From: Spartinivicinus ruber
Lineage (GTDB): Bacteria; Pseudomonadota; Gammaproteobacteria; Pseudomonadales; Zooshikellaceae
Reading direction: 5' to 3'
NCBI RefSeq assembly: GCF_011009015.1
Contig: NZ_CP048878.1
Coordinates: 1,835,001-1,899,000 of the forward strand
Length of the DNA stretch: 64,000 nt
Part shown: in pieces, positions 19,306 to 46,041 of the stretch
Position numbering within the stretch: the first letter of the stretch is position 1
Layout: each line of letters opens with the position of its first letter
The notes under the pieces: model-generated
What the model saw: the letters and a program-made list of their open reading frames with translations, nothing else
Told to the model about the DNA's origin: nothing
The model's database searches: none
Position numbers and translations under genes: made by a program

Positions 19306-20565
19306 TTAGCTACTTAATAGACGCTTTTTAATCCGATAAAGAGGTTCAAATATCCACTCCATAAGGGTGCGTTGTTCTTGAATCAGATCGGCACTTAAAG
19401 TCAGCCCTGGACGGAGTGGATATTGTTTGTCATGGAGTTGCATATATTGCTTATCGATATCCACTTCTGCCCGATAATAAATTAATCGATCATCGAGTTT
19501 AATATTACTCTCTTTTGCATAGGAAGCCACATTGGAAAGCTGGGTAACAATACCTTTGAGTGTACCGAATTTTTCTACTGGATAAGCATCAACTAATACC
19601 CTGACCGGTTGGCCTTCTCGGGCAATACCTACTCGTGGAGAGGGAATATAAAGTACTGCTTTTAAACCCTTGCTGTTTTCAGGCTGAATTTCGACAGCAA
19701 TTTGCTCTGATGGTAGAATGGTTGAGCCTTGTACAACATTGATCTTTTGAATAATCCCTGAGGTGCGGGCAGTAACAACTTTTTTCCGGTTGCTGTTATA
19801 GTCATTGGCCTGGCGTTGAATATTATTCAGTTGAATTTTTAATTCTGCTCGTTGCTTTTCTATTTGGATTTTTTTACGTTGGAAGTCTTCTTGGTGGTTT
19901 TCAATTTCAAGATTAACTTGCTGTAAGTTATCAGTCAGTTCCAACTGTTGTTGTTTGGCTTGAAATAAGCGAATTTCTGCATCATCCAATACTTTCTCTG
20001 AAACAATTTTAGTTTTGGCTAGTTTCTTTAAGCGAGTGACATGTTTGGTTAATTTATGAATAAGCTGTTTTTGTAGGGCTAACTTTGTTACTAAGGAAGA
20101 CTTGTCATTTTTTAACCGCCTGTTAGTGGATTGGTTGATTTTCTTTTCAATGATGATTTCTTCATCAAGTTGGCTGATTTGTTTGGTGAGAGTTTGTTTT
20201 TGTTGATTTTGCAACTGTACATTCTGTTGTTGAAACGACACTTGGTTGGTATCAATGTTTTCATTAAGGATTGAAAACAGGGGGGTTCCTTTAGACACTT
20301 TATCACCTAGCTTGATAAAAATGTCATCGACTTGTCCTGAATAGGGCGATTTTACTTTAATCAGGCCTTTTTCTGGTTCCAAATAGCCTGTTACTGTTTC
20401 CCCTGGGGCGTATTGAAAGGAAACCAGAACAATAATCGTAATGAAAAGCACTGAAAAGCAAACAAGAGAAAATAGCTTGATACTCACAGGTACACTGATA
20501 TTGCCATCCAGTACATGCTCGATAGTTTTATCGTGAGTGACAAATCTTCCTTTTGTTTTCTTCAT
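19306..20565 (-). CDS. HlyD-family membrane fusion protein of a peptide exporter
   Basis: 419 residues: a cytoplasmic N-terminus, one transmembrane helix (about 30-50), a lipoyl/barrel half (GETVTGYLEPEKGLIKVKSPYSGQVDDIFIKLGDKVSKGTPLF), a long coiled coil (about 95-250, rich in Gln/Lys/Leu), then the returning lipoyl half and C-terminal barrel domain. Such adaptors join an inner-membrane ABC exporter to an outer-membrane TolC channel. It is the last gene of the operon, 16 bases after the acyltransferase. No TolC gene is in the window, so a general TolC is probably used. Confidence 0.9.
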   Translation of the reverse strand: MKKTKGRFVTHDKTIEHVLDGNISVPVSIKLFSLVCFSVLFITIIVLVSFQYAPGETVTGYLEPEKGLIKVKSPYSGQVDDIFIKLGDKVSKGTPLFSILNENIDTNQVSFQQQNVQLQNQQKQTLTKQISQLDEEIIIEKKINQSTNRRLKNDKSSLVTKLALQKQLIHKLTKHVTRLKKLAKTKIVSEKVLDDAEIRLFQAKQQQLELTDNLQQVNLEIENHQEDFQRKKIQIEKQRAELKIQLNNIQRQANDYNSNRKKVVTARTSGIIQKINVVQGSTILPSEQIAVEIQPENSKGLKAVLYIPSPRVGIAREGQPVRVLVDAYPVEKFGTLKGIVTQLSNVASYAKESNIKLDDRLIYYRAEVDIDKQYMQLHDKQYPLRPGLTLSADLIQEQRTLMEWIFEPLYRIKKRLLSS

Positions 20566-20581
20566 AATCTTACAACTGATC

Positions 20582-21514
20582 TTATTGGGCTAACTTCGTG
20601 GGTTGAAAATAGGTGCCCACTTGTTGCCAGTTCATCCATTCGCTAGGTCTTGCCCGAATAGACTGCTCTAGCATTCGTACAATCGCATTAAGATAAACTT
20701 GTTGCCCTTCTATACTTGGTTTTTTCCTTACATAAAAAGGCGGTTTAATCTGCAAATAGGGTTTCTTGTGAAGTTCGAAGGCATTCCCCCAGAGTTCAAT
20801 CGGTAATAGTGGGCATTGGGTTTGGTATGCAATTTTTAGGGCGCCAACAGCAAAGCGGGCTTTTTTACCAAAAAAACGAGTTTCCTGAGCTGTGCCAAAT
20901 GCGCCACTGAGATCACCATAAATAATGACCACTACTTGCTGTTTCCGTAGTTTTCTAAGGAGCTGCTTTAAATCTTGGCTATCAGTTGCTGAAAGAATAC
21001 TGACGCTTAATTGGTGAATATTGATCAGTTTATTAATCCAGTTAAAGCTTAATCCTGTGGTATGTGCACCCCGTAAAATAATTAGTTCATATTCAGGGGG
21101 TAATAGTGGCCAAATCACTGAACATAGACTAATAAAATCGCCGAAATGAAAGGGTAATAAGATAGCATTTTGTGATTGTGCCAATAGCCTTTTCAGTGGC
21201 TCTACATTTGTGACGCTAATGCGTTTGTTAACAAAATTTAACCAGCGTTTTAATCCAACGCGGCAACAGAGGAAAAAGCAAGCAACCAGTTTATATTGGT
21301 TTTCAAAGAAGCCAACGGCATGAGCATAAGCAACATCGCTTTCTTGCTTGAGCAGTAACCGAAAATTTTGGTGCTGATTATTGATATCCGCTCTGGCAAA
21401 TAGCGTCGATTGCCTGCCAAACCAGCCGGCAACTACGATTACCCAGCGATAGGGTAAGGTATAAGCTGCAATAAAAAGTAATAATAAGGCAAATCGGGTA
21501 TACCAGTTTCTCAT
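20582..21514 (-). CDS. LpxL/HtrB-like lysophospholipid acyltransferase in peptide-export operon
   Basis: 310 residues of the lipid A biosynthesis acyltransferase family (PF03279 type). An N-terminal hydrophobic helix (about 8-30) anchors it. The catalytic-block region reads LLPFHFGDFISLC; further on come TRFFGKKARFAVGALKIAYQ and PLLPIELW, and the end has PSEWMNW, all matching the family in order. Most relatives have His-x4-Glu (HFGNWE); here the Glu position is Ile and an Asp stands three residues after His. Its ATG overlaps the stop of the ABC exporter gene by 4 bases, so it is translated with the exporter. It may acylate the exported peptide, or alter the host envelope for self-protection. 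Both are inference. Confidence 0.82.
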   Translation of the reverse strand: MRNWYTRFALLLLFIAAYTLPYRWVIVVAGWFGRQSTLFARADINNQHQNFRLLLKQESDVAYAHAVGFFENQYKLVACFFLCCRVGLKRWLNFVNKRISVTNVEPLKRLLAQSQNAILLPFHFGDFISLCSVIWPLLPPEYELIILRGAHTTGLSFNWINKLINIHQLSVSILSATDSQDLKQLLRKLRKQQVVVIIYGDLSGAFGTAQETRFFGKKARFAVGALKIAYQTQCPLLPIELWGNAFELHKKPYLQIKPPFYVRKKPSIEGQQVYLNAIVRMLEQSIRARPSEWMNWQQVGTYFQPTKLAQ

Positions 21515-23652
21515 GGCTTGATTGCCTTTCGCTTGCTATCTTTGATGGCATCATGGAAAAGGTGACCTTTGCGCATGAGGAAAATACGGTCTACCCCTGG
21601 TAATAACTTGAAGTCATGAGTGACGATGATCGTGGTGCGTTTTAGCTGCTTGATATTATTAAATACTTTTGCGGCCGTTACCCGGTCTAAATGGGAAGTA
21701 AATTCATCTAACAGCAAAATATCGGGGTTTTTGTATAGCATTCTGGCAATCAATAGCCGTTGTTTCTGACCGGCTGATAAAAAGCCTGCATTTTCGCCAA
21801 TTACGGTGCGATAACCAAAGGCAAACTGCATAATATCATTATGTACTTCTGCAACTTTGGCACACCACTCTAAACGTTGATCATCCACTTCACCAGCAAA
21901 AGCACAGATATTATCAATAATAGTGCCACGAAACAGTTGATCATGTTGGGTGACAATTCCGATGCGTTGACGATATTCATTGATATTCAACTGGGTCATA
22001 TCAGCCTGATTAATAAAGACACTATTGGCTGACGGCTTGTATAAGCTGGCAATAATATTCAGCAGTGTTGTTTTGCCACTACCTGTTTGCCCAACAATGC
22101 CAATAATTTCACCGGCACTTATATTCAGGCTGACATTTTTTAAGATAGGCTCTTCTTCACCTTTGGGAGCATAGCTTAAATTACGAATTTCAATGGTATT
22201 TGGCTTTTCAATGTAAACTTTGGGCTTATTATCCAAGCGTTGGTTTTCATTGGGTTGAGAAACAATATCGTAAATACGCTCCAAGTGAACTTTCATCACT
22301 TCTTTGTCTAGAATAACATCCAATACCTTGAAGGTATTTTCTGCAAAAACAAACTTAAACTGAATAAAAGCGTAAAGTTCCCCAACAGTCAGCTTGCCTT
22401 TAATCACTAATAGGCTGCCAACAAGAATAATTGTCATTTGTTCAATATTTAGGCAGAACTTACTGAGCACATCAAAGACAATCTTGACTTTCTCTTGTTG
22501 GCGGTTAGCAATAATATAATTGAGAAAGTTGTTTTTCCAAAGAGTGGTTCTTTCAATTTCACCGGCGCCAAATTTAATTGAATGGATATTACTTAAATTT
22601 TCTATCAGATAAGCATCGGAACTGGCTTTTTTGTTAATAGCTTCTGCTGCAGCCTGTTTCAAAGGTTTATGAAAGAAGTAACGAGAACAAGCAAAGATTG
22701 TCATGGCAATAAAAATCAGCCCAGAAAGCATTGGGCTGTAATAGAGCATCAACACTAAACTGATTACAGCACCGATTATTAAAGCCACAGAAGTCGCTAA
22801 ACTGCCAGCAATGTAATTAGTGACTTGCTCTGCAGAATTGACTCGGGAAATGATGTCGCCTGAAGTTCTGACAGAGAAATAGTCAATAGGCAGACGCAGT
22901 AAGTAAGCAACAATATTGCCTTTAACTTTTCTGTTTAGGCTATTGGAGAAGTAACTGATTAAATTAGCATTTAGGTACTTAAATACCACTTCATATAGAA
23001 AGATCAAACCAAAAACTATGGAAAGTAGGTAAACGACATCCGTATCTGCCTTACTGATGGCTTCATCAACGGTGAGCTGGATATAAAAGGGGGTTAATAA
23101 CCCGAGTGCCTGTAAGGTTATGCCGGTGGCAAAAATAATAAAAAATGAAGCGGGAATGCCTTTGATATACTTAAAAAAATCGCTTAACAGTAAACCGCGT
23201 TCTTCAAATAGTGTCTGTTGACCAAAGTTTACATCTGGAATTAACTCTATAGCATAGCCGCTAAGGTAGTCGAGATAATCTTCCCGGTAAAGGGTACGGC
23301 GTCCCAGTGCTGGGTCAATGATTGTAATAGCATCACTACTGACTTTTTCTAAAACCACGAAGTGGTTTTGCCCCCAGTGTAATATACAGGGCAGGTTAAG
23401 GGTATCTACTGCATTAATATCAAATCGTATAGGGAAAGCTCTTAAGCTTAGCTCACCAGCCACTTGCACTAAATTGTATATACTATGGCCGGATTCGGCG
23501 GAAGGAGGGTAGTGTTTGCGTAAATAGCGTAACGACGTTTTTTGACCAAAACCACTGGTAATCATCGCCATGCAGGCCAGCCCACATTCAGTGATTTCTT
23601 CCTGCAGAATGACTGGAATTTTACGCTGTCGGTTTATTTTTTGAGACTGCAT
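21511..23652 (-). CDS. Peptidase-containing ABC transporter (C39 bacteriocin processing/export)
   Basis: 713 residues in three parts. The C39 peptidase (about 10-140) has Gln17 and Cys23 in QEEITECGLACMAM, His in LHWGQNHFVVLEKV and Asp in IIDPALGRR, a full catalytic set. A six-helix transmembrane domain follows (about 165-440). The nucleotide-binding domain has Walker A GIVGQTGSGKTTLL, signature LSAGQKQRLLIARML, Walker B DILLLDE and switch His in IIVTHD. Such proteins cut leader peptides after a double glycine and export the core. A matching precursor lies 81 bases upstream. With the HlyD adaptor it forms a type I peptide secretion system. Confidence 0.96.
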   Translation of the reverse strand: MQSQKINRQRKIPVILQEEITECGLACMAMITSGFGQKTSLRYLRKHYPPSAESGHSIYNLVQVAGELSLRAFPIRFDINAVDTLNLPCILHWGQNHFVVLEKVSSDAITIIDPALGRRTLYREDYLDYLSGYAIELIPDVNFGQQTLFEERGLLLSDFFKYIKGIPASFFIIFATGITLQALGLLTPFYIQLTVDEAISKADTDVVYLLSIVFGLIFLYEVVFKYLNANLISYFSNSLNRKVKGNIVAYLLRLPIDYFSVRTSGDIISRVNSAEQVTNYIAGSLATSVALIIGAVISLVLMLYYSPMLSGLIFIAMTIFACSRYFFHKPLKQAAAEAINKKASSDAYLIENLSNIHSIKFGAGEIERTTLWKNNFLNYIIANRQQEKVKIVFDVLSKFCLNIEQMTIILVGSLLVIKGKLTVGELYAFIQFKFVFAENTFKVLDVILDKEVMKVHLERIYDIVSQPNENQRLDNKPKVYIEKPNTIEIRNLSYAPKGEEEPILKNVSLNISAGEIIGIVGQTGSGKTTLLNIIASLYKPSANSVFINQADMTQLNINEYRQRIGIVTQHDQLFRGTIIDNICAFAGEVDDQRLEWCAKVAEVHNDIMQFAFGYRTVIGENAGFLSAGQKQRLLIARMLYKNPDILLLDEFTSHLDRVTAAKVFNNIKQLKRTTIIVTHDFKLLPGVDRIFLMRKGHLFHDAIKDSKRKAIKP

Positions 23653-23733
23653 TATGATTCAAAAAGTAGCAAGTAGTGGTCTTTGATATATCTGCCTATC
23701 ACATATGAGAGGCAGATATAAGTGCTTTTGAAG

Positions 23734-23910
23734 TTATGACTTAACTTTAGAAGCACTAATGACCGCGTTTTCAATTGCAGCGAATGCGCCACCAATGCCA
23801 GTTAAAATACTAGTAGCGACTTGAGTAACAGGGCCAAGATCAACGCCGCCACGGATATTTTTAGTTTCTTCTAAAGAAAGTGTTTCTTTTTTAGTAGTAT
23901 TTTTTTGCAT
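23734..23910 (-). CDS. Double-glycine leader precursor peptide (bacteriocin/microcin-like)
   Basis: 58 residues from the ATG at 23910, which has GGAG 7 bases upstream (an in-frame TTG two codons earlier is less likely). The leader has the double-glycine form ETLSLEETKNIRGG, with cleavage expected after GG at residue 22. The core (36 residues) begins VDLGPVTQVATSIL and is small-residue-rich and hydrophobic (LTGIGGAFAAIENAV), ending in a basic KVKS. It has no Cys, Ser/Thr-Cys pattern or other lanthipeptide mark. It lies directly upstream of the C39 exporter on the same strand. It is probably the operon's cargo: a class II microcin-like antibacterial peptide, or a signal peptide. Activity is not shown by sequence. 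Confidence 0.85.
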   Translation of the reverse strand: MQKNTTKKETLSLEETKNIRGGVDLGPVTQVATSILTGIGGAFAAIENAVISASKVKS

Positions 23911-24385
23911 GGACAATCTCCATATGTAGTGGGCTTACATATAACTAAAATTTTTAACTAGATGAAGCCCTTATTTTTATTAACTGCTAATATTAAAGGT
24001 GATATGCGTCAAATATTGCTTTTTGGAAAAAACATCTATGACGCTCATCAAGAATATCAGGTTGAGCAGAACAAACAGTGATTTTGTTTACAAAGTTATG
24101 CAAACTCAATCAATGTGTTTTTGTTAATTATTTTGACGGCTATTTATTAGCTGATACAAATATATTGAACAACTAATCAAGGCTGAAGTGAATTTTTACA
24201 AGGTTTTTCTTAATGTTGAATGTTAACTATTGAAGAATGCGAATAAAGACGTAACAAGAAATAGAGCGAACGAAATAATAATTAAAGAGGTATATAAGAG
24301 GCGCCCTTATTTTTTAATTATATAAATTGTTGGAGTGATTGCAGTAAAGGTTTAATAAAGGTGTAGTATGTGGCGGTAATCTGTG
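23911..24385. other. Upstream region of the peptide operon
   Basis: About 475 AT-rich bases with no convincing gene. It holds the ribosome site of the precursor and should contain the operon promoter. A GGGCTT/AAGCCC inverted repeat near 23931-23970 could fold in the mRNA leader. I searched both strands by eye for a second double-glycine leader and saw none. Confidence 0.4.
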
Positions 24386-24670
24386 TTATTGAAATGAGAG
24401 TGCGTCAGTTTTATTAGTATCAAAGTTATTAAACGATTTTGAGATAATCTGTTGGCGTGCTATCAGCTTGGAAAATTGCTCTTTGATCAGATTTTTTAGC
24501 AATGATTCATAGTTGACTATTAAATATAGTAAGGCTGCTACACCTGCAGCAGTGAGAACTATTCCAATAATGTTAGAGCTGATGGTTAATGTGACTAATC
24601 CAATTATTAGTCCAAGCAATATATTGAACAGTATTACAAAACCAATCACTTCAAAAAATCGCTTACTCAT
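24386..24670 (-). CDS. Small two-helix membrane protein, possible immunity protein
   Basis: 94 residues, beginning MSKRFFEVIGFVILFNILLG. Two strong transmembrane stretches (about 7-30 and 34-50) are followed by a polar, Lys/Gln/Asn-rich tail (SKLIARQQIISKSFNN). It is on the same strand as, and upstream of, the peptide operon, with an IS5 element right behind it. Small membrane proteins beside class II bacteriocin genes are often immunity proteins, but I recognise no immunity family. The ribosome site is weak. Coding status is plausible, function unproven. Confidence 0.45.
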   Translation of the reverse strand: MSKRFFEVIGFVILFNILLGLIIGLVTLTISSNIIGIVLTAAGVAALLYLIVNYESLLKNLIKEQFSKLIARQQIISKSFNNFDTNKTDALSFQ

Positions 24671-24724: not shown

Positions 24725-25694
24725 AGAAGGTGTTTTAAAAAGAGTGAATGCATACAAAGTTGTATTGTAAGAGATAACTACCAAGGGGTTACTCGTACGG
24801 CGGGCCTATAGGAATAGGCTCCCTTACTGTTTATTATTGGTTTCGCAAAAATCAAAGATAAACAATAAAAAGAGCCTAAATGGATTATCCAACAGATTTA
24901 ACTGATACACAATGGGAAATACTGAGCCCTGTATTACCTGCATCCAAATGGCAACCTGGCAATAGAGGCAGACCACCCGTTAATAGACGCCTAATCATGA
25001 ATGGCTTGCTTTATGTCCTAACAACTGGCTGTCAGTGGCGAATGGTGCCTAAAGACTTTGGCTGTTGGCAGACAGTATACGGTTATTTTAATTCCTGGAG
25101 CCAGCAGGGGGTTTGGGAAACCATTATGGATACCTTCAGGAAATGCTATCGTGAAAAAGTAGGAAGAAAAGCCGATCCCAGTGCAGGTTGTATTGATAGT
25201 CAAAGTATTAAAACTCATACGCAAGGTATTCATGTTGGTTTTGATGGTGGTAAAAAAGTAAAAGGTCGCAAACGTCATATTTTAGTTGATACGCTTGGTA
25301 TTATTATCTGTGTTGTAGTGACTTCAGCTGCCGTTGGTGAGCGAGAGGGATTAAAACAGCTACTTAAGGGCTATGTTGCAAAAGGCATGACGAGTTTACT
25401 CAAAATTTGGCTGGATAGCGGTTATTCTGGCACGCCTATTATTGATTGGGTTAAAGACTTTCATCAAGCTACTCGAGAAATTATTCTAGAGGTGGTTGAA
25501 AGGGCAGGTAAAGGATTCAATGTTATTAAACAGCGCTGGGTGGTTGAGCGTACTTTTTCTTGGCTAATTAACTATAGACGACATGCTAAAGACTATGAGG
25601 TTCTAACAAAAAATAGTGAAGCAATGATACAGATCGCCATGTTACATATTTTAGTCAGGAGAATCGCTTAAGCTTTTATTTTAAAACACCTTCT
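24725..25694. mobile_element. IS5-family insertion sequence
   Basis: Bounded by perfect 16-base inverted repeats, AGAAGGTGTTTTAAAA at 24725-24740 and its complement at 25679-25694. The element is about 970 bases and holds one intact transposase gene. I see no matching target duplication in the bases just outside the repeats, so it may be old, or one end may have rearranged. It separates the peptide-export region from the feo/nnrS region. Confidence 0.88.
24880..25671 (+). CDS. IS5-family transposase
   Basis: 263 residues in a single open frame. The N-terminus (MDYPTDLTDTQWEILSPVLP) and the following WRMVPKDFGCWQTVYGYF are the usual IS5-type start domain. The DDE catalytic residues fit IDSQSIKTH, then LDSGYSGTP, then an RWVVERTFSWLINYRR segment with the closing Glu. 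Upstream between the left repeat and the start is a promoter-like AT-rich segment. Intact, so probably functional. Confidence 0.93.
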   Translation: MDYPTDLTDTQWEILSPVLPASKWQPGNRGRPPVNRRLIMNGLLYVLTTGCQWRMVPKDFGCWQTVYGYFNSWSQQGVWETIMDTFRKCYREKVGRKADPSAGCIDSQSIKTHTQGIHVGFDGGKKVKGRKRHILVDTLGIIICVVVTSAAVGEREGLKQLLKGYVAKGMTSLLKIWLDSGYSGTPIIDWVKDFHQATREIILEVVERAGKGFNVIKQRWVVERTFSWLINYRRHAKDYEVLTKNSEAMIQIAMLHILVRRIA

Positions 25695-43012: not shown

Positions 43013-44539
43013 TTAATAACGACTTAATAAGTCGTCGATTGCTGCATCACAATTAAGTAGTGGTACAGGATTTAGGGTATCACCTGGCTTATAGGTATAT
43101 CCATTACTATTTTTAGTGAGATAATTTTTGATAGCCTGCTGGTTAAGAGAAGGTTCTATTTCCTTTAATTTGGCTATGCAAGAGAGAGTTTTTGCGGCTG
43201 CTACATGAGTTGATACAGCTTGATAGTTATGACTACCTCTAGAAATTATTCGCTCTGGATATAGGTCATTTGTTATAGGTTCCCTCGATATAAAAAATCC
43301 TTCTGCTGAGATAGTTGTACTTTTACTTATATTGGAAAAATACATGGGTACATTCTCAGTATAAGGACTATTAAGCCATGTTCCTACTGTAGGATAAGCA
43401 TAAAGGTCAAAGTTATCTATCACAGAGCTAGAAACATCAACTGGAGAGTGGGCCGTAACTGATATTGTCTCAGGTAAACACGCAGGGAAAGCAGTTTGCC
43501 CTGTATAGCCCTTATTACCAGTAGGAGTAATGACTACCACACCACGGGCTATCAGATCATTAATGGCTTGTCTTATTTGAAAGAAGGTGTTTTCACTATT
43601 TTGAACCACAGAATGTCCAGAGCAATCACTACCCTTAACACCCCTATAATACAAGCTGGGTAAATAAATAATGTCCACCTTTTTATTTGGATTATTTACA
43701 TACTCTAATAAACCTTCTTTAATACCTAGCCAGTCATAAGTGCCACCATCAGAGCCTAATTCACTTCCATGTAAATTATTTGGTCTATAATTGGTGTGGT
43801 GTACGTTATACACGTTTATATCGCTAAGATAGGCGCTGCCAATTTTAGCGTTTGATTCTTTTTTACTACCTGATTTGTATTTTTTGGCTGCGATACTGCT
43901 CACTATCTCTGCTCCCATGTAGCTAGCATCATCAATGCTATATGCAGCTCCCTTACCAGATTGACGACTTGATCCAGATGGACATGAAGATTTCTTTTGA
44001 TATTTTTTATCTTCTGGCTCATACAAACCATCATCATAATCTGGGTCAAAACCTTCCCTATCATAAAGTGGAAGTAAGCAATGTTCATTGACATGCGCTA
44101 GTTCAGAGCGGTTGCTCGGTATTCCTGTAGTAAAAACAGCTACTTTTATATTTCTTCCTTCTGGGCTTGCATTTATATTCAATATATTTGGATGATTTGC
44201 AAGTTTTTTTAGTGTGTCAATGTCAAGAGCCATATACTCACGATAAATAGAATCCTTTATATGTTTTTCATAATTCAAACCAATTCGATAGTTGCTACTT
44301 ATTAGTTTAATTAGCTCTATTTTTTCTTTATCAGGAAGATTGAAATCAACTTTAATCCATACTTTGTAAAGCTCATTGTTATAATCACTTGATTGGGCGA
44401 TATCATTAATTATTGTTTTGCCATATTTGTTTAAATTTGGTGACAGCTCTTTTTTGACTTCATCTACAGTAATTGCTTTTAAGTGAGTGCAGTTTAATGC
44501 TATAAAAAAAATAGTGCTGAGTTTTATGGCTGGCTTCAT
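43013..44539 (-). CDS. Subtilase-fold pseudoprotease, catalytic residues lost
   Basis: 508 residues with a signal peptide (MKPAIKLSTIFFIALNCTHLKA). It aligns with the subtilase encoded next door: AVFTTG where the neighbour has the active AVIDSG (Asp replaced by Thr137), DASYMGAEIVSSIAAK where it has DTHGTHVAGIIAAK (no His), and STHVAAAKTLSCIAKL where it has GTSMAAPYVSACIARM (Ser replaced). The oxyanion Asn region (GNKGYTGQTAFPACL) and several Cys remain. An intact 1.5-kb frame with all three triad residues gone suggests a maintained non-catalytic role, such as an inhibitor, chaperone or decoy for the active protease. Confidence 0.8.
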   Translation of the reverse strand: MKPAIKLSTIFFIALNCTHLKAITVDEVKKELSPNLNKYGKTIINDIAQSSDYNNELYKVWIKVDFNLPDKEKIELIKLISSNYRIGLNYEKHIKDSIYREYMALDIDTLKKLANHPNILNINASPEGRNIKVAVFTTGIPSNRSELAHVNEHCLLPLYDREGFDPDYDDGLYEPEDKKYQKKSSCPSGSSRQSGKGAAYSIDDASYMGAEIVSSIAAKKYKSGSKKESNAKIGSAYLSDINVYNVHHTNYRPNNLHGSELGSDGGTYDWLGIKEGLLEYVNNPNKKVDIIYLPSLYYRGVKGSDCSGHSVVQNSENTFFQIRQAINDLIARGVVVITPTGNKGYTGQTAFPACLPETISVTAHSPVDVSSSVIDNFDLYAYPTVGTWLNSPYTENVPMYFSNISKSTTISAEGFFISREPITNDLYPERIISRGSHNYQAVSTHVAAAKTLSCIAKLKEIEPSLNQQAIKNYLTKNSNGYTYKPGDTLNPVPLLNCDAAIDDLLSRY

Positions 44540-44586
44540 ATTATATTCCAGAATGTATACTTAAGATTAATGGTATTATTTAGGAT

Positions 44587-46041
44587 CTAAGTTCTAGAAG
44601 AAGGAGTTAGTAATAGTGCATCATCACAATTTAGCATAGGTCTACTAATATCGTAGTCGTTCTTCTTGCTTCCTTGTTTGACTGAATATTTAAAAATATC
44701 TTTTATTTCAGTGGTTGATAATTTTGGGTTTCTCTCTAGCATTCTGGCAATACATGCTGAAACGTAAGGAGCTGCCATAGAAGTGCCAGAGATCTTTAAT
44801 TTCAAAGAATTAGGATCAGCTTCATCATAATTTGCATTTGTTGATTCGATATTATGGCCTGGAGCTAATACTGTTACATGCTTAGATAGATTGGTATAGT
44901 CTGTCACATTTCCACTATTGTAGGTCTCATTTGTATAGTCATCTGTTCCTGATGTTGGGTAGACAGCACCAACAGAAATTACGTTTTGAAGACAAGATGG
45001 AAATCCAACGTATCCTTTTTGGTAATCATTACCAGAAGCGACAACAATTTTTACCCCTTTTTTTGCTAGATTATCAATTGCTTTTTTATAATCAGCTAGA
45101 TGTCCTGATAACATGCCATCACAATTTTCTGAAGCATAACTACTACTACCTAAACTCATATTAACGATATCCACATCAGGAATATCTGATGTAATTTTAT
45201 TTAATGCTTCAATAGTGTCAAAAGTTGATCCATTGCCGTTTTTATGTAAAGAGCGTAAGTTGACAATGTTAGCATTATAGGCCATTCCAGCAGGAGCACC
45301 TCCCTTGAGAGGTTTCGCCGCAATGATGCCTGCTACATGTGTACCATGAGTATCTTGTTTACCATCTATGGTACGAGCACTACCTCCTTCATTTGGGTAG
45401 TTTTGTGGACAATTGGACGGCTCCCCCTTCTGATCTATATGCTTAGAAAAGCAATAGTGAGAAACATTAGGCAGCTGCGGGACATTGGCTACGCCTGAAT
45501 CAATAACAGCTACAGTAATTCCCTTTCCAGTAAGGTCTTTGAATCTTGTATGTCCATTATAGTCACTTTGGGTAAAAGAAGTACGATATCCTCTATTTTT
45601 TTTTGATAAATTTCCTGTATTAAGTGAAACCTCTTCTATATAAATATCTTTGGAAGAATTGCTTAGCTTAATGATATCTTCATATGTAATTTCTATTGTA
45701 AATAATGGCGATGTTCCAACCATATTAAAATTACTATATTGTATCCCTGCATTGTTTAAAACAGCTTTTGCTTCATTTTCAAAGTTTGTATCATCACTAT
45801 TTATTAAATTGTCTGAAAGCTTGATGGAAATTTTTATCGCTATATTTTTATTGGTTGTTTCCAGCTTTCGTTTAAGCTGTCCTGAGATGTTAGGGTAATT
45901 AAATTTGCTGTTTGAGTTAAAGCTTGTTTTATTAATTGTTTTGGGACTGAGTTTGTTGGAGTCTTCTGTATTTTCAGTTGCTAGGGCATTACAGGAAACA
46001 AAAATAGCAAGGCTTAAACTTGATAATAAATAATACTTCAT
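44587..46041 (-). CDS. Secreted subtilisin-like serine protease, S8 family
   Basis: 484 residues with a signal peptide (MKYYLLSSLSLAIFVSCNALA), an inhibitor-like propeptide (about 60-140) and a catalytic domain. Triad: Asp181 in AVIDSGVA, His232 in DTHGTHVAGIIAA, Ser421 in SGTSMAAPYV, with oxyanion Asn338 in VVASGNDY. Several Cys in the mature part suggest disulfides, as expected for an exported protein. The pseudoprotease gene lies 47 bases downstream in the same direction, so the two are probably co-transcribed and arose by duplication. Confidence 0.94.
   Translation of the reverse strand: MKYYLLSSLSLAIFVSCNALATENTEDSNKLSPKTINKTSFNSNSKFNYPNISGQLKRKLETTNKNIAIKISIKLSDNLINSDDTNFENEAKAVLNNAGIQYSNFNMVGTSPLFTIEITYEDIIKLSNSSKDIYIEEVSLNTGNLSKKNRGYRTSFTQSDYNGHTRFKDLTGKGITVAVIDSGVANVPQLPNVSHYCFSKHIDQKGEPSNCPQNYPNEGGSARTIDGKQDTHGTHVAGIIAAKPLKGGAPAGMAYNANIVNLRSLHKNGNGSTFDTIEALNKITSDIPDVDIVNMSLGSSSYASENCDGMLSGHLADYKKAIDNLAKKGVKIVVASGNDYQKGYVGFPSCLQNVISVGAVYPTSGTDDYTNETYNSGNVTDYTNLSKHVTVLAPGHNIESTNANYDEADPNSLKLKISGTSMAAPYVSACIARMLERNPKLSTTEIKDIFKYSVKQGSKKNDYDISRPMLNCDDALLLTPSSRT

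Follow-up and report, generated by a model that had tools for sequence, protein, structure and literature searches.

The window, a 64,000-nt stretch of Spartinivicinus ruber contig NZ_CP048878.1 (GCF_011009015.1, positions 1,835,001–1,899,000), contains a four-gene operon in which an LpxL-like acyltransferase stands among the genes of a peptide export system. This raises the question of whether the enzyme acylates the exported peptide or the lipids of the producing cell. The operon occupies positions 19306–23910 of the window on the minus strand and encodes a precursor peptide, a C39-peptidase ABC exporter, the acyltransferase and an HlyD adaptor (Table 1). The acyltransferase and exporter genes overlap by four bases (ATGA, 21511–21514). 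Coordinates and domain scans bear out the sequence-only reading, which had placed the four genes in one direction with this overlap. Its end coordinate, 24670, does not hold, as it takes in an additional open reading frame (24386–24670) that is not an operon gene. This small membrane ORF has a homologue in all three genomes of the genus, including the congener G034 (66% over residues 1–62), which has no operon. Because this operon-free genome carries a homologue, we place the ORF outside the operon and rejected a dedicated immunity role for it. The operon itself contains no ACP or acyl-activating gene, no immunity gene was recognised in it, and its promoter-like and terminator-like sites were not more numerous than in shuffled sequences.

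Table 1 Genes of the S. ruber operon (window positions)
Feature	Position	Strand	Supporting observations
Precursor peptide, 58 aa	23734..23910	-	ATG at 23910; leader ends RGG
C39-peptidase ABC exporter, 713 aa	21511..23652	-	Pfam PF03412 E 1.2e-27, PF00664, PF00005
LpxL/PatA-fold acyltransferase, 310 aa	20582..21514	-	PF03279 E 4.6e-13; Foldseek PatA/LpxM
HlyD-family periplasmic adaptor, 419 aa	19306..20565	-	PF13437 E 1e-11; PF16576

The operon has the components of a double-glycine peptide/C39-ABC export system: a GG leader, an HlyD-type adaptor and a C39 domain in which alignment located the catalytic Cys, His and Asp. The adaptor also matches TIGR01843 at E 4.6e-33, below the curated cut-off of that model. 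The precursor consists of a leader (residues 1–22) and a hydrophobic core rich in Ala, Gly, Val and Ile (residues 23–58; VDLGPVTQVATSILTGIGGAFAAIENAVISASKVKS). It is 91% identical to its counterpart in an orthologous operon (locus L024, genome G100), with dN 0.039 and dS 0.57, and is therefore not a chance ORF; it is under purifying selection. Aligned with seven precursors from Pseudohongiellaceae, another family of the same order, the S. ruber leader retains one Leu, one Glu and the GG as invariant positions. Both precursors of the genus and five of those from Pseudohongiellaceae end in Ser. We considered this residue as a common modification site, as in siderophore-microcins, and do not claim it because the precursors of loci L083 and L084 end otherwise.

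The acyltransferase passes the curated cut-off of PF03279 (49.5 versus 22.3 bits). Foldseek retrieved PatA (E 1.1e-9) and LpxM (E 3.3e-9), with a TM-score of about 0.5 by query length. Motif alignment placed His123 in HFGDF(I), without the acid of the HX4(D/E) motif that marks the family, and located the block-3 acid, Asp201. All 25 acyltransferases of the group carry the pattern HxG[DENH][FY] without an acid at +5. Comparison with the L024 enzyme (dN 0.040, dS 0.53) shows that the S. ruber acyltransferase is under purifying selection. The genome encodes two further PF03279 proteins, both scoring far higher than that of the operon.

Within the genus, the operon is present in two of three genomes. 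The L024 operon, the one ortholog found in our samples, keeps all four genes, its HlyD adaptor being 93% identical to that of S. ruber. Precursor, C39 exporter and PF03279 protein are thus found together a second time, the co-occurrence that the sequence-only reading had proposed to look for. Among 390 genomes of the order, ten acyltransferase matches fell below E 1e-70, all at loci combining acyltransferase, HlyD and C39 exporter; the locus check covered these ten and a minority of the weaker matches in the order. The phylum sample gave five weaker matches. A search with the acyltransferase alone as query gave no match indicating phage, plasmid or viral carriage.

The same association recurs in Pseudohongiellaceae, where 23 of the 59 genomes sampled encode a homologous acyltransferase. 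HlyD and a C39-ABC exporter adjoin it at 22 of these 23 loci; the exception, L092, is cut off where its contig ends. An ACP with its Ser is encoded at each of the 22 uncut loci, and 15 of them additionally encode a fatty acyl-AMP ligase and an AurF-like oxygenase, family names that derive from Pfam and NCBIfam assignments for the proteins of L023. All 25 aligned exporters retain Cys, His and Asp of the C39 domain. By contrast, no C39 peptidase was found at 32 control loci that carry other members of the family. The Pseudohongiellaceae acyltransferases bear an N-terminal extension, which we considered as a candidate peptide-recognition domain. Pfam and Foldseek gave no evidence for this: Pfam found no domain besides PF03279 in two of these proteins, and the predicted structure of one Pseudohongiellaceae acyltransferase retrieved only PatA and LpxM below E 0.001.

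Adjacent double-glycine precursors, seven in all, occur at five of the 23 Pseudohongiellaceae loci, and one of these precursors exceeds the score threshold of TIGR03949, a family of class IIb bacteriocins; none was recognised next to the other 18. We also searched for precursors encoded in trans with a profile (A5), covering 22 of the 23 acyltransferase-bearing and 22 of the 36 acyltransferase-free genomes. At E up to 0.002, a threshold chosen after the list was seen and with kinship to the model genomes uncontrolled, matches occurred in 8 of 17 acyltransferase-bearing genomes outside the five model genomes versus 1 of 22 acyltransferase-free genomes. In five of these eight, the leader pattern revealed a double-glycine ORF at the matched place. 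Such ORFs are also present in the acyltransferase-free genomes G110, G509, G510 and G520. Together with the uncontrolled kinship, this makes the profile weak support for putative trans-encoded precursors in the acyltransferase-bearing genomes.

The ancestry of the two groups of acyltransferases depends on the alignment columns used. A tree from all columns joins the S. ruber enzyme, which sits on a long branch, to those of Pseudohongiellaceae (support 94/91). When the two motif blocks are removed, this joining is lost and the pair from the S. ruber genus stands beside L021 (91/86); the joined tree is not rejected by these data (AU p 0.106). With L021 also removed, the pair groups with L020 (71), within one set that includes L107 and the Pseudohongiellaceae enzymes (70).

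The sequence-only reading had named the usual absence of the acyltransferase from related loci as one sign of an accidental association. The enzyme is kept in the L024 operon, and 22 of the 23 Pseudohongiellaceae loci pair it with HlyD and a C39 exporter. Because of the co-occurrence in L024, and because the homologous acyltransferases of Pseudohongiellaceae are linked to an ACP as well as to HlyD and a C39 exporter, a chance association is unlikely as judged from gene neighbourhoods, and acylation of the peptide is favoured over self-protection through lipid A. We consider it probable that the product of the operon is a lipidated microcin of class II: a bacteriocin-like peptide that the acyltransferase fatty-acylates from acyl-ACP and that is then secreted. 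The acyl donor would presumably be the housekeeping ACP in S. ruber and the dedicated ACP in Pseudohongiellaceae, in most clusters probably loaded by the fatty acyl-AMP ligase. At the cytoplasmic face of the inner membrane, the LpxL-fold enzyme would move the acyl chain from ACP onto a precursor side chain. Cleavage after the double glycine by the C39 domain would follow, and the product would leave through the exporter, the adaptor and a TolC-type pore whose gene lies outside the operon. What the analysis shows directly is the gene order, the family and fold of the enzyme, the conserved active-site residues of the C39 domain and the acyltransferase, the selection on the precursor and the recurrence of the association; the identity of the acyl donor, the role of the peptide and of one of its residues as acceptor, the pore in the outer membrane and antibacterial activity are inferred. 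Several observations weigh against acylation: the S. ruber operon has neither ACP nor ligase, the operon is missing from one of the three genomes of the genus, and its acyltransferase is not joined to those of Pseudohongiellaceae once the motif blocks are removed. The Pseudohongiellaceae loci with no recognised precursor and the locus L107 count against it as well.

These last two observations are what would be expected if acyltransferase, ACP and ligase made a product of their own, an acylated small molecule or lipid, that used the same exporter, the peptide being independent. At L107, an acyltransferase from the same clade is encoded next to an ACP, and the exporters there lack a C39 peptidase, so the acceptor there need not be a peptide. 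Such a separate product is nevertheless improbable: every aligned cassette exporter retains its C39 Cys, His and Asp, which makes continued cleavage of a leader peptide probable, and a precursor adjoins the cassette in S. ruber and at five Pseudohongiellaceae loci. We find it highly improbable that the S. ruber acyltransferase is a passenger, there by chance or decayed, within an otherwise ordinary operon for a class II microcin. Its long branch, its column-dependent kinship and the single orthologous operon would fit a passenger, but the purifying selection on the gene, its overlap with the exporter gene and the retention of His123 and Asp201 would not.

Alternatively, the peptide could be exported unmodified while the acyltransferase alters the lipid A or phospholipid of the producer as self-protection. 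The enzyme does belong to a family and fold of membrane-lipid acyltransferases, and this role would supply the immunity function for which the operon has no recognised gene, the ORF at 24386–24670 occurring without the operon too. We nevertheless regard self-protection as rather unlikely: the enzyme lacks the HX4(D/E) acid found in lipid A acyltransferases, the two higher-scoring PF03279 proteins would serve lipid A, and the ACP of all uncut Pseudohongiellaceae cassettes, with ligase and oxygenase in 15, exceeds the needs of such an enzyme.

How does a peptide-acylating system of this kind compare with those already known? MccE492 and MccH47 are siderophore-microcins, double-glycine microcins with their own exporter. 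The S. ruber operon resembles these systems (MceI/MceJ, MchD/MchC) in combining a double-glycine peptide with an acyltransferase-type enzyme, which there serves maturation. PMC3281104 presents MceI and MchD as HlyC-like enzymes (PF02794), whereas the S. ruber enzyme is of another acyltransferase family, PF03279. Scans of the operon genes found no HlyC-like PF02794 protein, MceJ/MchC-like partner or glycosyltransferase. GNAT-lipidated RiPPs (microvionin, goadvionins, lipoavitides, selidamides and nostolysamides) are, in the relevant sections of PMC13060382, lanthipeptides acylated by GNAT enzymes, and for nostolysamide a double-glycine site and C39-exporter cleavage are predicted there. These sections agree with the sequence-only reading, which had GNAT-type or other enzymes, not this family, at work on known lipidated peptides. 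The likeness to S. ruber lies in a ribosomal peptide with an acylating enzyme from its own cluster, as proposed here; the difference lies in PF03279, and Pfam and NCBIfam scans found no GNAT or lanthipeptide synthetase among the operon genes. The acyltransferase shares with LpxL, LpxM and PatA its domain, fold, conserved His and block-3 acid, but HxGD(F/Y) replaces HX4(D/E) and the genes stand with C39 exporters, unlike those at the control loci. With class IIb bacteriocins (lactobin A/cerein 7B, TIGR03949), the precursor shares a double-glycine leader and a small hydrophobic core rich in Ala and Gly; unlike them, it gave no hit to any NCBIfam or Pfam model, even with a limit of E 1. We know of no TIGR03949 member described as acylated.

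Published routes to lipidated ribosomal peptides comprise, in the sources consulted, GNATs, a CoA-transferase, the lipoprotein pathway and prenyltransferases; our literature search found no system of the present kind. The recurrent pairing suggests a route to lipidated peptides that may be new. We hold it to be an even chance that the loci represent an undescribed class of lipidated microcins built on LpxL/PatA-fold enzymes fed by ACPs. In Pseudohongiellaceae the acyl supply line would be complete, with ligase, ACP and, as a possible tailoring enzyme for the chain, an AurF-like oxygenase; in the genus of S. ruber it would be minimal and draw on the housekeeping ACP. The C39 exporter, HlyD, PF03279 protein with HxGD(F/Y) and ACP provide a signature for genome mining, and the compact four-gene operon a direct test bed for the chemistry. 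If the proposal is true, a lipid A-type acyltransferase using acyl-ACP would be a further class of enzyme that fatty-acylates genetically encoded peptides.

The four genes at 19306-23910 are co-directional on the minus strand, as the sequence-only reading had described them: a double-glycine precursor, a C39-ABC exporter, an LpxL/PatA-fold acyltransferase (AT) and an HlyD adaptor, with an ATGA overlap between the AT and exporter genes. The precursor had no match to Pfam or NCBIfam models at E up to 1. Elsewhere in the window, an adjacent gene pair resembles, by eye, subtilisin-type secreted proteases. Another site in the same genome (L019:3-3509) encodes a glycosyltransferase-acyltransferase fusion beside ammonia-lyase-like and dehydratase-like ORFs, a gene set like that of aryl polyene clusters.

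Operon genes and nearby features in the window.
Feature	Position	Strand	Pfam match
HlyD adaptor	19306-20565	minus	
AT	20582-21514	minus	PF03279, E 4.6e-13
C39-peptidase ABC exporter	21511-23652	minus	PF03412, E 1.2e-27
Precursor, 58 aa, leader end RGG	23734-23910	minus	
ORF outside the operon	24386-24670		
Transposase ORF, IS5-type by eye, directly past the preceding ORF	24880-25671		
Protease-like gene pair (by eye)	43013-46041		

A search of 145 genomes of the order gave AT matches of any strength in 13, the window's own included; the one orthologue is in the congener G100, and all others are weak. The G100 operon is complete (AT 92%, exporter 96%, HlyD 93% and precursor 91% against the window). 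Purifying selection on all operon parts is indicated by the values for the precursor (dN 0.039, dS 0.57) and the AT (dN 0.040, dS 0.53), to which those of the exporter and HlyD are comparable. The operon is absent from G034, the third genome of the genus, where a 559-aa gene with the look of a response regulator (by eye) occupies the syntenic place and a homologue of ORF 24386-24670 is retained. The site is thus variable and the operon an accessory unit; this ORF, which the earlier placement of the operon end at 24670 had taken in, does not belong to the operon. G100 also carries a locus (L090:2387-9265) with a double-glycine ORF, HlyD, a C39 exporter and three proteins of 336-337 aa that by eye are reminiscent of a grasp-with-spasm system.

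One of the weak matches among the 145 genomes, in G044, lies in a cluster of AMP-ligase, acyl carrier protein (ACP), AT, HlyD and C39-ABC genes, with two small double-glycine ORFs downstream. Of 59 genomes in the same family, here called Pseudohongiellaceae, 23 have a homologue of this AT, and all 23 loci were inspected. HlyD and a C39 exporter adjoin the AT in 22; the 23rd (L092) is cut by a contig end and retains ligase and oxygenase genes. The neighbourhood that the sequence-only reading had proposed to look for therefore recurs, with precursor, C39 exporter and PF03279 enzyme together in G100 and with the exporter beside a homologous AT in these 22 loci. Fifteen loci encode an AurF-like oxygenase (divergent), a fatty acyl-AMP ligase, ACP, AT, HlyD and exporter, gene ends mostly overlapping or touching; the oxygenase and ligase were identified at locus L023 by Pfam and NCBIfam and at the others by tblastn with the L023 copies. 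The seven ligase-free loci hold AT, ACP, HlyD and exporter, the ACP in five being spotted by reading the gap rather than by tblastn. The ACP serine is conserved in 22/22 loci. In one genus (L085-L089, L091 and L093), a similar ORF of 216-235 aa with a small-transposase look (by eye) follows the exporter gene in 5/7 loci, and a YbjQ-family-like ORF (by eye) lies upstream of the AT in 6/7.

Adjacent double-glycine precursors were found at 5 of the 23 loci (two each at L023 and L071, and at L074, L083 and L084), and none was recognised nearby at the other 18. Nine precursors, including the window's, share the leader consensus MRELxxEEIxxVxGG, and one from Pseudohongiellaceae exceeds the threshold score for a family of class IIb bacteriocins. 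Precursor-profile matches elsewhere in the genome occurred in 8/17 AT-bearing versus 1/22 AT-free genomes (E up to 0.002, Fisher p 0.005), a comparison that excludes the model genomes, uses a threshold chosen post hoc and ignores kinship. Double-glycine ORFs occur in AT-free genomes too.

Across 390 genomes of the order, 31 had AT matches at E up to 1e-10 and ten fell below 1e-70: the window, G100 and eight genomes with inspected loci. The best match beyond the own genome among 398 genomes of the phylum was E 6e-19. In these two samples the strong AT group is thus narrow, with a single further family besides the genus of the window. Among 369 genomes of the class, four matched at E up to 1e-6, the own included, the others being weak. 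A genome-collection scan with nine Pseudohongiellaceae-type ATs, blind to relatives of the window's AT type, returned 34 loci: 13 of cluster type, each with all six genes and 11 of them already counted, and 21 weak matches, including L107 from a MAG labelled Actinomycetota. A C39 peptidase was present at 36 of 37 AT-group loci, with duplicate copies of a locus counted separately, versus 0/32 control loci. The controls carry other acyltransferases of weak similarity; L107 is among them, a few lie on contigs shorter than 5 kb, and they were assessed without a locus-by-locus Pfam scan.

For the window AT, structure prediction gave a model with mean pLDDT 69, mostly good over residues of about 100-300, which matched PatA at E 1.1e-9 and LpxM at E 3.3e-9 (TM-scores of about 0.5, normalised to query length); a Pseudohongiellaceae AT model (pLDDT 81) likewise matches both, PatA at E 4e-11. 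The His of an HxG motif is invariant in 25/25 group ATs, followed by D in 22 and by E, N or H once each, then by F or Y; all likewise keep the Asp of block 3, which is D201 in the window AT. An acid five residues past the His is found in 0/25 group ATs, whereas the majority of the aligned lipid A-type proteins have one. PMC4792965 reports that PatA His126 acts with Glu200, and suggests that HtrB, MsbB and PatA employ a block-3 acid instead of the HX4D acid. By contrast, the title of PDB 5knk names Glu127 of LpxM, its HX4E acid, as a catalytic residue. Given this proposal and the invariant His and Asp, the catalytic dyad may be kept and the surroundings of the acceptor site altered.

A tree built from 64 ATs set the pair from the window and G100, L107 and the Pseudohongiellaceae ATs apart from the rest (94/91). 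Without two motif blocks, the pair stood next to L021 (91/86), a protein in which the active His is absent, and the Pseudohongiellaceae ATs and L107 were separate (99/98); constraining the window AT with the Pseudohongiellaceae group was not rejected (AU p 0.106). Without these blocks and L021, the pair and L020 joined the Pseudohongiellaceae group and L107 at 70. These trees are compatible with one origin and with two recruitments alike. A tree of 38 exporters placed those of the window, Pseudohongiellaceae and L090, another RiPP-like cluster, in one starred set without inner resolution.

The literature searched, at the level of titles and abstract openings and with few subscription papers covered, yielded no description of PF03279 enzymes in gene clusters for ribosomal peptides. 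A preprint (PMC13060382) describes GNAT lipidation, and its reference titles name a CoA-transferase and the lipoprotein pathway. The siderophore-microcin proteins MceI and MchD, described in PMC3281104 as HlyC-like acyltransferases, are a functional analogue from a different enzyme family.

Lipid modification by the AT for self-protection is possible, as is an independent small molecule as its product. The best case for the latter is L107, with AT and ACP and exporters without a C39 peptidase. This locus (L107:3752-9554) encodes an AT of the same clade with an HMGDF motif. Its neighbours are genes resembling MacA/MacB by eye, an ACP-like ORF and an ABC exporter that lacks the C39 peptidase, so that AT and ACP together may also act on a product other than a peptide.

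Enzymes of the LpxL type take their acyl group from acyl-ACP on the cytoplasmic side. With peptide acylation, the AT would act on the peptide ahead of export, and for the window operon the housekeeping ACP would be the acyl source. Because an ACP is conserved beside the AT, a ligase is present in 15/22 clusters and the peptidase residues of the exporter are kept, our analysis points to a putative acylation of the peptide before export.
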